IMG/VR virus record: IMGVR_UViG_3300011416_000022
Location: 1-38,815 of that record
Reading direction: 5' to 3' (one strand)
From: a virus
DNA length: 38,815 bases
Part shown: positions 2,854-7,147 of the stretch, piece by piece
Position numbering within the stretch: position 1 is the first letter of the stretch
Layout of the letters: every line of letters starts with the position of its first letter
The notes under the pieces: generated by a model
What the model was told of the DNA's origin: nothing
The model's database searches: none
What the model saw: the letters and a program-made list of their open reading frames with translations, nothing else
Program-made: the position numbers and the translations under genes

Positions 2854-3051
2854 ATGCACAAACAGTCGTTTGGTTTTGTTGTTACAACCTCAGACGAGAA
2901 CGAGCAGGAAATCCGTATCCTCCAGTTCAATCTTGGGCGGGAGGACGATGATTCGATCCTCTTGCATGTCGACCAAGTGGATTATCTTTGCGCTTGGCTT
3001 CAGCAAGCGAAAAGAGAAATAGAGTCAAAGAAAGGCGAGGGGCATGGCTAA
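2854..3051 (+). CDS. Hypothetical early protein
   Basis: A 65-residue acidic protein starting MHKQSFGFVVTTSDENEQEI, with a C-terminal helix (VDYLCAWLQQAKREIESKK). No family is recognised. The ATG at 2854 has a poor Shine-Dalgarno; the strong GGGAG upstream points at ATG 2837 in another frame, whose 61-codon product is Ser/Arg-rich and looks like a shadow. The 2854 frame has balanced composition and ends by overlapping the next gene by 8 nt, which supports it. It is the first gene of the rightward early operon. Confidence 0.6.
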   Translation: MHKQSFGFVVTTSDENEQEIRILQFNLGREDDDSILLHVDQVDYLCAWLQQAKREIESKKGEGHG

Positions 3052-3484
3052 ACGCTTGACGGCCTCAGACAAGTGGGAAGATCCGTGGTTCCGTCGACTC
3101 CCCCCTGATTTAAAATTATTTTGGGTTTACCTTCTCGACAAATGTACTCACGCTGGTATTTTTATTCCAGACATGGAACTTGCTGAGTTTTACATAGGCA
3201 AGAAGTTGGATGCGAACCTTATACGCAAGGTACTAAAGGGTAGACTTGTTGAGTGTGAAGACGGTAAATGGTTTATTCCTAAATACATCCACTTCCAGTA
3301 TAAAAAATTGAATCCCGCGAACGTGGCGCATAAAGGGGTTATCGAAACGCTCCAACACTACGGATTAGTTGACGACAACCTGCAAGTCATTGAAGCCCCT
3401 TTAAAGCTCCTTCAAAGCTCCTTTAAAGCCCCTAAAGATAAAGATAAGATAAAAGCTAAAGCATCGGATAAAGAAAAGGTATAG
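3044..3484 (+). CDS. Replisome-organiser-like replication protein
   Basis: A 146-residue protein whose N terminus (MAKRLTASDKWEDPWFRRLP, LKLFWVYLLDKCTHAG) matches the N-terminal winged-helix-like domain widespread in phage replication initiators and replisome organisers. Residues about 1-100 form that domain; residues 115-146 are a Lys-rich, disordered-looking tail. Such proteins bind origin DNA and recruit helicase or primase. It overlaps the gene before it by 8 nt. Its 3' end encodes four 11-bp DNA repeats and an A-rich tract, as the lambda origin lies inside gene O. The gene ends in three in-frame stops (TAG, TAG, TAA at 3482-3496) created by a triple GGTATA repeat. No ATPase motif is present. 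Confidence 0.65.
   Translation: MAKRLTASDKWEDPWFRRLPPDLKLFWVYLLDKCTHAGIFIPDMELAEFYIGKKLDANLIRKVLKGRLVECEDGKWFIPKYIHFQYKKLNPANVAHKGVIETLQHYGLVDDNLQVIEAPLKLLQSSFKAPKDKDKIKAKASDKEKV
3389..3461 (+). other. Candidate replication origin: four 11-bp iterons plus A-rich tract
   Basis: Four abutting 11-mers: ATTGAAGCCCC (3389-3399), TTTAAAGCTCC (3400-3410), TTCAAAGCTCC (3411-3421) and TTTAAAGCCCC (3422-3432), consensus TTYAAAGCYCC. They are followed at once by an A-rich, nearly C-free tract (3433-3461). The 11-bp period equals about one helical turn and is not a multiple of three, so the repeats are not explained by a peptide repeat. Iterons plus an AT-rich stretch inside a replication-initiator gene is the lambda arrangement. 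Confidence 0.5.
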
Positions 3485-3561
3485 GTATAGGTATAAGCCT
3501 AAGCAAAGGATATGCTCGTTCACGCAAAGGTAATGAACTTTCACAAGCAAGCAAAGGATAT
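3478..3561 (+). repeat. Short direct repeats downstream of the iterons
   Basis: GGTATA occurs three times in tandem (3478-3495). AAGCAAAGGATAT occurs at 3501-3513 and 3549-3561, with a third GCAAAGG at 3524-3530. The last copy supplies the AAGGA ribosome site of the next gene. They may be part of the origin or be remnants of slippage. A 19-codon ORF (3512-3571) ends on the next gene's start; I see no other support for it. Confidence 0.35.
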
Positions 3562-3567
3562 CCCATT

Positions 3568-4299
3568 ATGACCGAGCTACAAAAGATCGAAAAACGCATT
3601 GAACTGGCTATAAATGCTGGTAAAAACGCCATGATTGCAACAATAAAGCTACTCGGGGATGTGTACGAAAAAAAACTCTGGGAGGAGAGTTATAAATCAT
3701 TCTCCGAATACTGTGAGAAGCGATGGCACTTTTCAAGAATCCGAGGTTATCAAATCGTCGGTTCTGCTGAGATTTTGAAGCTTTTACCTGAAAAAGTGTT
3801 AAGCGCGCTTAACAGTGAAAAAGCCATTGCGGCGTTGAAAGACGTACCCCCCGATGAGCGAGAAAAGGTGATTGAGAAGGCTTCAAAATCCGGGAAGGTG
3901 ACGGCCAAATCCATCAAAAAAGCCGCCAAAGATGAGACTCCCCCACTACTCGACAAGACGGGGCTTCTCATCCCGACAGCGATAGAGCGAGACTGGGACC
4001 GATCTAAGGATCTTGCCGAATTTATGCTATCACGCATATCCCAGGTAAAGGTCGCTCTCGAGAAGGGAATGGAAGATGAATCTGAGATTTTTACAGAAGT
4101 CACGAATAGCACCCTTTCGAAGCTCAAATACATCTATCAGGATCTAAAACGACTCGAACCACACGCCGTATGTACATCCTGCCAGGGGTCAACATCGAAA
4201 GAGAAATGTTCACTTTGCGGCCATCGCGGATTTATCTCGGAATTTATATACAGGAATTGTTCACCAGAGGAAACCCGTAAAATCCGGGAAGCCAAATGA
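3568..4299 (+). CDS. Zinc-ribbon protein of the replication module
   Basis: A 243-residue protein of unknown function. Residues about 1-70 are helical and include YKSFSEYCEKRWHFSRIRGY, a pattern common in phage and plasmid DNA-associated proteins that often precede ParB-like regions. A Lys-rich middle (SKSGKVTAKSIKKAAK) follows, then a helical segment and a C-terminal zinc ribbon CTSC...CSLC (two CxxC pairs eight residues apart, near residues 202-217). The stop overlaps the helicase start (ATGA), so expression is coupled. A role as DNA-binding adaptor for the helicase is inference from position only. Confidence 0.55.
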   Translation: MTELQKIEKRIELAINAGKNAMIATIKLLGDVYEKKLWEESYKSFSEYCEKRWHFSRIRGYQIVGSAEILKLLPEKVLSALNSEKAIAALKDVPPDEREKVIEKASKSGKVTAKSIKKAAKDETPPLLDKTGLLIPTAIERDWDRSKDLAEFMLSRISQVKVALEKGMEDESEIFTEVTNSTLSKLKYIYQDLKRLEPHAVCTSCQGSTSKEKCSLCGHRGFISEFIYRNCSPEETRKIREAK

Positions 4300-5924
4300 C
4301 GCTCAGGGATTATCAGGAGCGCGCGGTAAACGCGATTGAGGAGGAGTGGAAGGAGAACGACTCCACACTCTTAGTCTGTGCCACGGGAACCGGAAAGACA
4401 CAGATTTTTTCCGAACTCATACGCCGTCGTCAACCGCAACGTGCGATGATACTTGCACACCGGGAAGAACTTATATGGCAAGCGCAGAAACGTCTCGAAT
4501 CCTTAGACATCGAAGCGGAAGTAGAGATGGCAGACTTTAAGGCTGGCACTAAGTTTTGGAATATGAGGCCGGTTGTGGTATCAACAATCCAGACTCAATG
4601 CGCTGGCAAAAACGGCAGTACAAGGATGGCGAAGTTCAACCCAGAAGAATTTTCATTACTCATCATCGACGAAGCACATCACGCTACAGCACAATCCTAT
4701 CGGCGTGTCATTGACCATTATCGTCAAAATCCAAATCTCAAAGTATTAGGAGTTACAGCGACCCCAGATAGAGCTGATGAGGAAGCACTCGGCAAGGTTT
4801 TTCAGACCGTCGCGTTCGATTATGAAATACTTGATGCGATTAAAGATGGTTGGTTGGTCCCGATTGAACAACAAATGGTCGAAATCGAATCATTGGATTA
4901 TTCACACATCCGCACGACAGCAGGAGATCTGAATGGTGCCGATCTCGCAGAGGTAATGGAGGCTGAAAAAAATTTACAGGGGATTGCCGCTGCGACGATC
5001 GAAATAATTGGGAAACGGAAAACAATCGTATTTACGGCAAGCGTGAGACAAGCTGAAAGTCTATCTGGCATTTTCAATCGACACCGAGAAGGAATGTCAA
5101 GGTGGGTTTATGGTGGTACACCGAAGGAAATAAGACGCGAAATACTAAAAGATTTTGCGGAAGGGAGTACACAGGTAGTTGCGAATTGTGGGATTTTATC
5201 TGAAGGTTTCGATGAACCTGGGGTTGAAGTAATAGTCCAAGCCCGACCAACCAAATCGCGATGCCTATATTCACAGCAAATCGGCAGAGGGACCCGGCCA
5301 CTTCCCAAAATCGTTGACGGCATTGACGCAAAAGAGGAACGAAGATTCGCGATTGAGACCAGCGCGAAACCATCCCTACTTGTCGTGGATTTTGTCGGCA
5401 ACAGTGGTCGCCACAAACTCATCACCAGCGCAGATGTACTCGGAGGCAATGTTAGCGAAGAAGCGATCGAACTCGCTATCAAAAAAATCAAAAAGGAAAA
5501 GAACCCACGTAAGACAGACGAACTACTTGAGGAGGCTCAAAGGGAAATTGAGGAGCGCAAGAAACAAGATGCTCTCCGCAAGGCCCGACTGGTCGCGAAA
5601 GCGAAATACACGTCGAAGATAATTGACCCCTTCAATATCTTCCAACTCGAGCCGGCGCGCGAGCGCGGATGGGACGCCGGGAAATCACTTTCAGAGAAAC
5701 AGAAAAATCTTTTACGCAAACAGGGGATCGATCCCGACTCAATGTCGTATGTGCAAGCGAAGCAACTTATTGTTGAACTCTTTCGGCGCTGGAAAGACGA
5801 TTTATGTTCACTGAAACAGGCGAACATCCTGAAGAGGTATGGCTATTCAACGCAACTCACACGCAAAGAAGCCAGCGCACTCATAGATCAACTCGCGAAA
5901 AATCACTGGAAGAGGGTAGGGTAA
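4296..5924 (+). CDS. SF2 DEAD/DEAH-box helicase
   Basis: A 542-residue ATP-dependent helicase or translocase. Motifs in order: N-terminal RDYQ (residues 4-7), Walker A ATGTGKT (29-35), Walker B DEAH (125-128), motif III TATP (154-157) and motif VI QQIGRGTR (327-334). These are the two RecA-like lobes of superfamily 2, of the type used by phages in replication and recombination (the UvsW and RadD-like groups). A charged coiled segment (about 385-440) joins them to a C-terminal domain containing SLSEKQKNLLRKQGID and KEASALIDQL, seen in other phage helicases and possibly DNA-binding. No DnaB-type helicase is present in the window. Confidence 0.88.
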   Translation: MTLRDYQERAVNAIEEEWKENDSTLLVCATGTGKTQIFSELIRRRQPQRAMILAHREELIWQAQKRLESLDIEAEVEMADFKAGTKFWNMRPVVVSTIQTQCAGKNGSTRMAKFNPEEFSLLIIDEAHHATAQSYRRVIDHYRQNPNLKVLGVTATPDRADEEALGKVFQTVAFDYEILDAIKDGWLVPIEQQMVEIESLDYSHIRTTAGDLNGADLAEVMEAEKNLQGIAAATIEIIGKRKTIVFTASVRQAESLSGIFNRHREGMSRWVYGGTPKEIRREILKDFAEGSTQVVANCGILSEGFDEPGVEVIVQARPTKSRCLYSQQIGRGTRPLPKIVDGIDAKEERRFAIETSAKPSLLVVDFVGNSGRHKLITSADVLGGNVSEEAIELAIKKIKKEKNPRKTDELLEEAQREIEERKKQDALRKARLVAKAKYTSKIIDPFNIFQLEPARERGWDAGKSLSEKQKNLLRKQGIDPDSMSYVQAKQLIVELFRRWKDDLCSLKQANILKRYGYSTQLTRKEASALIDQLAKNHWKRVG

Positions 5925-6346: not shown

Positions 6347-7147
6347 ATGAGCGAGCATAAATTCATAAGAGCGACCAAAGCCTTTAAATGTAAAATATGC
6401 CGTCACGATTCGTGGTGCTCTTATGCAGACGGTCTTGGCTGGGTATGTATGCGCGTAGAAAATTCTCACCCGACAGCAAACGGGGGTTGGTGGCACAAAG
6501 ACTCGGGGGGGCCGAGCAATCCGTTTCAACTTCCAAAAGAACAACCCGTCATCGTACTGAACAATCTCGACTGCGAAAGAATTTTCTCAAACCTCATCGT
6601 CGATGTAAACATGATGGTGTCTTTCGCCGACACGATCAACGTCGATGCGTCAGCACTACGTTACCTTGATGCACGTTGGTCTCCGTATTTCAATGCGTGG
6701 GCCTTCCCGATGAAAAACGCTCAAGAAAAAATCGTGGGCATAAGACTTCGAAACGCCGAAGGAAGAAAATGGGCCGTTAGGGGATCACACCAGGGTCTCT
6801 TCATACCGAGCGGTCTTCATGATAAGACACTGATGATTTGTGAAGGCCCAACCGATACAGCCGCAGCGCTCACACTCGGATACTTCGCCGTCGGTAGACC
6901 GTCGGCAGAAACGGCGAACAACATCATTCTCGAATTTATTCGCACAAACAAAATCTCCCGCGCCATCATTGTACCGGACAACGACCCAGTCGGAATACGG
7001 GGTGCGGAAAAACTACAACTACCAATTCCCACGATCACATGGCTACCACCCACTAAAGATCTGAGAGATTTTCTGCGCAAGGGAGGAATCCGCGAAATCA
7101 TCGATTCAGCCATCCGCGACATGGTTTGGACGCTACCTAAAAAATAA
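6347..7147 (+). CDS. Zinc/TOPRIM primase-like protein
   Basis: A 266-residue protein with an N-terminal zinc-binding region (Cys15, Cys18, Cys24 and Cys34) and a TOPRIM domain: the first acidic motif is CEGPTDTAAA with Glu166, the second VPDNDP with Asp211 and Asp213. This is the arrangement of DnaG-type phage and plasmid primases, which lay down RNA primers using metal bound by the TOPRIM acids. It is short for a complete primase (T7 gp4 and DnaG carry a further N-terminal catalytic subdomain and a helicase or helicase-binding part), so the middle region (about 75-150) must supply it or a partner does. The start follows the previous stop directly. Confidence 0.75.
   Translation: MSEHKFIRATKAFKCKICRHDSWCSYADGLGWVCMRVENSHPTANGGWWHKDSGGPSNPFQLPKEQPVIVLNNLDCERIFSNLIVDVNMMVSFADTINVDASALRYLDARWSPYFNAWAFPMKNAQEKIVGIRLRNAEGRKWAVRGSHQGLFIPSGLHDKTLMICEGPTDTAAALTLGYFAVGRPSAETANNIILEFIRTNKISRAIIVPDNDPVGIRGAEKLQLPIPTITWLPPTKDLRDFLRKGGIREIIDSAIRDMVWTLPKK

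Follow-up and report, generated by a model that had tools for sequence, protein, structure and literature searches.

An 11-bp iteron array and adjoining A-rich tract within a phage initiator-like gene form a probable intragenic replication origin

To our knowledge most phage replication origins are unmapped. Intragenic phage origins that combine iterons with an A/T-rich tract are an already known kind, represented by phage lambda, with iterons of about 18-20 bp, and by the rep gene (orf13) of Lactococcus phage TP901-1. In the TP901-1 record rep carries an experimental annotation; the linker of this replication gene contains tandem repeats together with an A-rich tract, and the repeats were reportedly identified as the origin by Ostergaard et al. 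in 2001. In lambda and the lambdoid phages the origin lies in the central part of the initiator gene, where tandem iterons adjoin the AT/A-rich tract, and in lambda the O protein binds both the iterons and a single strand of the tract (PMC7466680). A related layout is found outside phages in the basal unwinding region of Bacillus subtilis oriC, where double-strand sites (DnaA-boxes) stand at a set distance from a period-3 single-strand element (DnaA-trios/DnaD Recognition Element) and DnaD recognises TnnT pairs on the strand complementary to the DnaA-trios (PMC10201434). Phage replisome organizers and DnaD-like initiators (PHROG 270, 428, 13246 and 1701; Phg_2220_C) join a winged-helix N-terminal domain to a low-complexity linker.

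The locus described here lies in a window that is the entire 38.8-kb virus record, with terminase, portal and major head protein at the right and a replication module at the left. A 146-aa winged-helix initiator-like protein, assigned from its ORF, AlphaFold2 model, BFVD neighbours and the PHROG matches of its relatives, is encoded at 3044-3484 (+ strand). On the same strand follow a 243-aa protein of unknown function (3568-4299), which has no PHROG match and no Pfam or NCBIfam match above curated cut-offs, and two replication-module neighbours of the 146-aa gene: a RadD-like DEAD/ResIII helicase of the phage DNA helicase family (4296-5924; phrog_16, 1.1e-87; PF04851) and a primase-like protein (6347-7147; phrog_239 DNA primase/helicase, 1.4e-9; phrog_47 DNA primase). 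GC skew across the contig shows no inflection near 3.4 kb and is uninformative, nearly all genes lying on one strand. One exact DnaA-box (TTATGCACA) occurs at 2852 and none between 2853 and 4897 of the window; boxes with at most one mismatch number 28 contig-wide. Towards the left end a 65-aa protein (1929-2126, - strand) strongly matches the histone H1-like protein Hc1 family (PF07432, 62.2 bits), a chlamydial-type nucleoid protein on a phage contig.

Four abutting 11-bp iterons in a single orientation occupy 3389-3432 (+ strand): ATTGAAGCCCC (3389-3399), TTTAAAGCTCC (3400-3410), TTCAAAGCTCC (3411-3421) and TTTAAAGCCCC (3422-3432). Units 2-4 match TTYAAAGCYCC exactly and unit 1 with two mismatches, so that the four 11-mers which the sequence-only reading had placed against an A-rich tract in the 3' part of the gene are indeed there, three of them exact and one imperfect. 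Tandem Repeats Finder returns 3393-3433 (period 11, 86% matches) as its top score in the contig, and the period-11 self-match at the array (26/30) is the contig maximum, with other periods from 7 to 20 giving at most 20/30 anywhere in the contig. The four-unit array score of 47/54 was compared with 5,000 synonymous recodings, which kept the protein and took their codons from the genes of this phage; none reached it, and among periods 7 to 16 only 11 was exceptional over the region of the 146-aa gene. The array score thus lies beyond synonymous recoding and the peptide does not account for the repeat, in agreement with the earlier proposal that protein constraint does not explain the 11-bp step. 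Elsewhere in the window, copies of AAAGCYCCTTT with up to two mismatches occur at chance level. GCAAAGG repeats had also been reported downstream, and copies are present at 3503, 3524 and 3551. However the heptamer is not enriched (5 seen and 4.9 expected in the contig); it was therefore given no weight, and the repeats at 3503-3557 were dropped as an origin component.

Directly after the last iteron lies an A-rich, purine-rich tract (3433-3461, + strand; TAAAGATAAAGATAAGATAAAAGCTAAAG), a putative unwinding or helicase-loading element, with 6-bp repeats at 3433-3453. It stands at the same distance from the last iteron as the corresponding tract in relatives of the gene and matches it. The window tract is degenerate, with a longest period-3 A run of 5 triplets where the median among relatives is 8. 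A second 6-bp array (AGGTAT x3.2; 3477-3495, + strand) crosses the stop codon at 3482-3484 and is probably the outer part of the tract. The frame of the 243-aa ORF is open from 3472 and overlaps the initiator coding frame, whose end lies ten bases further on. The AGGTAT repeat also sits on the junction of the initiator ORF and this downstream frame.

In an AlphaFold2 model of the 146-aa protein built with 58 relatives, residues 1-120 are predicted to form a compact, helix-rich domain with a short wing (core mean pLDDT ~90; block means 87-94 over residues 11-110), and residues 122-146 (block means below 50) a disordered linker encoded by the DNA that carries the array. Among named BFVD models, the nearest folds belong to phage replisome organizers and a DnaD-like replication protein, and model and neighbours together place in this protein a winged-helix N-terminal domain like that of replisome organizer/DnaD-like initiators. 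Searched alone, the protein gives nothing significant in PHROG, Pfam or NCBIfam, initiator families included; none of the three yields a gpO/Phage_rep_O match, and in the PDB neither the sequence search (nothing significant) nor the fold search (no match below E 0.001) finds a counterpart. A single-sequence protein search of viral contigs returned no relatives, and a six-row alignment tried as the query proved too diverse. The C-terminal DnaD-like or Phg_2220_C domain that is present in some relatives, where it presumably contacts the helicase machinery, is absent from the 146-aa protein. The missing domain and the degenerate tract suggest that the window copy could be a decayed or split version. 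Since the protein ends right after the linker and the next frame opens at 3472, a frame change may have split a single gene into the 146-aa gene and the 243-aa ORF.

Set beside the known systems, the locus has the lambda-type layout of tandem iterons in initiator coding sequence with an A-rich tract directly adjoining. The likeness to lambda that had been claimed from the sequence is therefore upheld for the layout (iterons plus A-rich tract), but it does not extend to the protein family, there being no gpO match, or to the unit length: the window units are 11 bp and helically phased, whereas the lambda iterons are longer. No P-type loader adjoins the gene in the window, and relatives of the gene carry iteron copies in both orientations. 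TP901-1 rep likewise places tandem repeats and an A-rich tract in a replication-gene linker, but its repeats are 15-bp and in register, in contrast to the 11-bp out-of-register units here, and its initiator is of another family. The likeness to B. subtilis oriC is one of layout only, as the window has no DnaA-box array, the initiator is not DnaA, and the period-3 register is weak in the window itself (a run of 5). From the phage replisome organizers the window protein differs in stopping after the linker and in scoring, by itself, for none of those families.

Relatives of the gene were gathered with N-terminal peptides only (77 viral loci) and reduced by removal of near-duplicates to 61 genes, which include Pseudanabaena phage Pan5 and Kiritimatiellae copies; a scan of bacterial and archaeal genomes gave a single match, in a Kiritimatiellae assembly. 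All statistics, here and for the second family below, rest on N-terminal searches, and an iteron-pattern search, biased to arrays by design, was used as a lead only. Proteins of the relatives match PHROG replication initiation, replisome organizer, DnaD-like helicase loader and primosomal families (the group of PHROG 270, 428, 13246 and 1701), as well as Phg_2220_C, and the genes downstream of them include a DnaB-like helicase and a primase-helicase. Arrays were scored as three 7-bp cores at a set spacing, with either orientation allowed for every core, over codons 95-165 and against 300 synonymous recodings per gene. A spacing of 11 is significant in 24 of the 61 genes at p<=0.01 and in 36 at 0.05, so that about 40% of relatives fail the 5% test; spacings of 8-10 and 12-16 reach significance in 0-1 genes at 0.01 and 1-4 at 0.05. 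A scan of the genes with 600 bp on each side places 26 of 29 strong 11-bp hits at 300-479 nt of the gene, and at the 10-bp control spacing it gives none. The density of such hits is 26 per 11.7 kb in the linker region versus 6 per 297 kb elsewhere in the same loci, a difference of ~110x. The arrays of the relatives thus share one place, immediately past the winged-helix domain.

The 11-bp phase is also apparent in an alignment of 57 relatives that was anchored at the beginning of the A-rich tract and made without selecting genes for arrays. Its G/C profile peaks at about -5, -16.5, -28 and -39, an 11-bp ladder whose 11-bp power is reached by none of 2,000 random phases and none of 5,000 whole-codon shifts. 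The cores themselves vary by subfamily (AGCCCC, ACCCTA, AGACTAT, AACGGAC, GAGGTCA, ACCCAGG), and orientation is mixed in 19 of 64 significant arrays from this and the second initiator family described below. Among close relatives that retain the N-terminal sequence, for example L117-L122 and L126, single copies are flipped or changed and the peptides differ. What these alignments indicate to be conserved across relatives is geometry, namely the 11-bp phase and the distance to the A-rich tract, rather than iteron sequence. Relatives that keep the peptide and lose the 11-bp repeat, which the sequence-only reading had named as evidence against itself, were not seen; the reverse, phase kept and peptide lost, is common. 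The tract anchor falls in the same codon frame in 50 of the 57 relatives, and constraint on the DNA and constraint on the peptide are therefore inseparable for the tract in this family, so that the claim of DNA-level constraint on the tract rests on the second family.

In L169 and L171 the N-terminal domain found in the other relatives is fused to an HNH-like nuclease domain, and neither the array nor the 6-bp tract is found; these genes, perhaps homing nucleases with a borrowed initiator DNA-binding domain, are a natural negative control. In L158 (gene 2501-2908; array ~2878-2925) the stop codon falls inside the array, with more units and the 6-bp tract beyond it, and in L192 the stop codon falls just upstream of the tract; both resemble the window gene. 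The linker repeats of L144 (gene at 2501, codons 110-125) look 12-bp (AGCCCCTACAGT), a possible exception to the helical phase.

A second initiator family, marked by the sequence MRDYSKVSPKFWIG, was met through the DNA-pattern search for arrays, and its sequence and context suggest a winged-helix protein. One scan of the viral collection yields 508 relatives, with named members in Klebsiella, E. coli and Acinetobacter phages, some of them beside dnaC-type genes. GASKGL, one of the query patterns, overlaps an iteron-like stretch and introduces a mild bias. In L007, L014, L017 and others this peptide apparently implies an inverted iteron-like GGGGCTTCGAAGGGGCTTC within the N-terminal coding region, upstream of the main array; these stretches are read from the peptide only.

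Significant 11-bp arrays (0.01) are present in 23 of 36 non-redundant genes of the second family. Their period-3 A runs have a median length of 14 triplets, compared with 3 in control tiles, and in 35 of the 36 this run is the longest of its locus. In 34 of 34 genes the A at every third base of the tract keeps the same register to the last AAGCC of the array, while the reading frame over the tract is one of two (25 versus 9 genes), so that a given stretch of DNA is translated as QEQEQE in one phage and as GTGTGT or GAGAGA in another. A fixed register despite two reading frames indicates that the DNA rather than the peptide is under constraint, and provides the cleanest evidence for it. Read from the opposite strand, an A at every third base becomes TnnT, a layout resembling that of the B. 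subtilis DnaD Recognition Element (PMC10201434).

An intragenic origin with iterons and an A-rich tract is the best-supported reading of these results, given the recoding test, the relatives, the second family and the matches to replication families. We estimate a probability of about 0.8 that the segment from 3389 to ~3495 is a phage replication origin embedded in its own initiator gene, and array and tract very probably mark the start of replication in the related genes of dozens of diverse phages. The array, its phase and position, its conservation at the DNA level, the fixed spacing in the second family and the prediction of a winged-helix fold rest on sequence; from them we infer binding, melting, helicase loading and origin activity.

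The array could instead be an operator through which the winged-helix protein represses or tunes its own and the downstream replication genes, the origin lying elsewhere. Cooperative repression would suit phased repeats under a winged-helix protein equally well, and the array does sit within the replication operon. An operator, however, gives no reason for a mid or 3' coding position at constant distance from a repetitive A-rich tract in many families, and the matches of the relatives' proteins to replication families and the intragenic position shared with proven phage origins (PMC7466680) likewise make this explanation improbable. A centromere-like (partition), packaging or recombination site located in this gene by chance is very improbable. 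Helically phased iterons are, it is true, also bound by plasmid partition adaptors. An iteron-type parC has been described (PMC6669507), but the relatives and neighbours of the protein are replication proteins rather than ParA/ParM or terminase, and the terminase and portal of the window are 5-9 kb away. Scarcely credible, and already strongly contradicted, is the view that array and tract are functionless DNA reflecting microsatellite slippage or low complexity of the protein (a flexible linker, charged or Pro/Ala): such linkers often grow by slippage, and K/D/E or Q/E dipeptides are encoded by many of the tracts, but a period of 11 bp is not divisible by 3, the array score lies beyond synonymous recoding, one DNA register is read in two frames (QEQE or GTGT), the L158 array and tract run past the stop codon, and the AGGTAT x3 of the window straddles its own.

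For an intragenic origin, the winged-helix domain (residues 1-120) of the 146-aa protein would bind each 11-bp iteron, one per helical turn, a spacing that would align the protomers on one face of the DNA whichever way the copies point. Wrapping or polymerisation over 3-5 iterons would then strain the adjoining A-rich tract at its set distance; the tract would open, its repetitive strands would offer a single-strand site, and helicase and primase would be loaded there. The helicase-loading step is modelled, by resemblance, on lambda O and B. subtilis DnaD, and in the second family the opened tract, with A at every third base and TnnT on the other strand, would be the helicase-loading site. The peptide linker (here EAPLKLLQSSFKAPKDKDKIKAKA; in relatives SPFEAPSKPLRS, KDKDKD, QEQEQE or GTGTGT) would be largely a by-product of origin DNA. 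There is perhaps an even chance that many tailed phages with unrelated replication domains share one origin code, in which 3-5 iterons of free sequence and orientation but 11-bp phase are written, at a fixed distance from a period-3/6 A-rich loading tract (TnnT opposite), over the linker of the initiator gene, such that the KDKDKD, QEQEQE and SPFEAPSKPLRS linkers of phage 'DNA-binding' or 'hypothetical' proteins would be origin footprints.

The literature searched, with subscription journals mostly outside it, holds no description of 11-bp intragenic phage iterons, and searching it for the motif letters gave chance primer matches only. Nor does that literature describe an 11-bp array, free in orientation and diverging in sequence, that keeps its distance to a repetitive tract fixed across at least two initiator families. 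If the phased array and A-rich tract mark origins, these could be predicted from sequence in very many phages and prophages, and odd peptide linkers would be explained as a DNA constraint. Iterons that diverge and flip at fixed phase and spacing offer a natural data set on the co-evolution of initiator specificity and site, and the fixed-register tract allows direct tests of which component melts the DNA and loads the helicase. Finally, among 5,426 complete E. coli genomes, 2,788 contain matches to the initiator gene of one second-family E. coli phage, and in 104 of these the match covers at least 80% of the gene.
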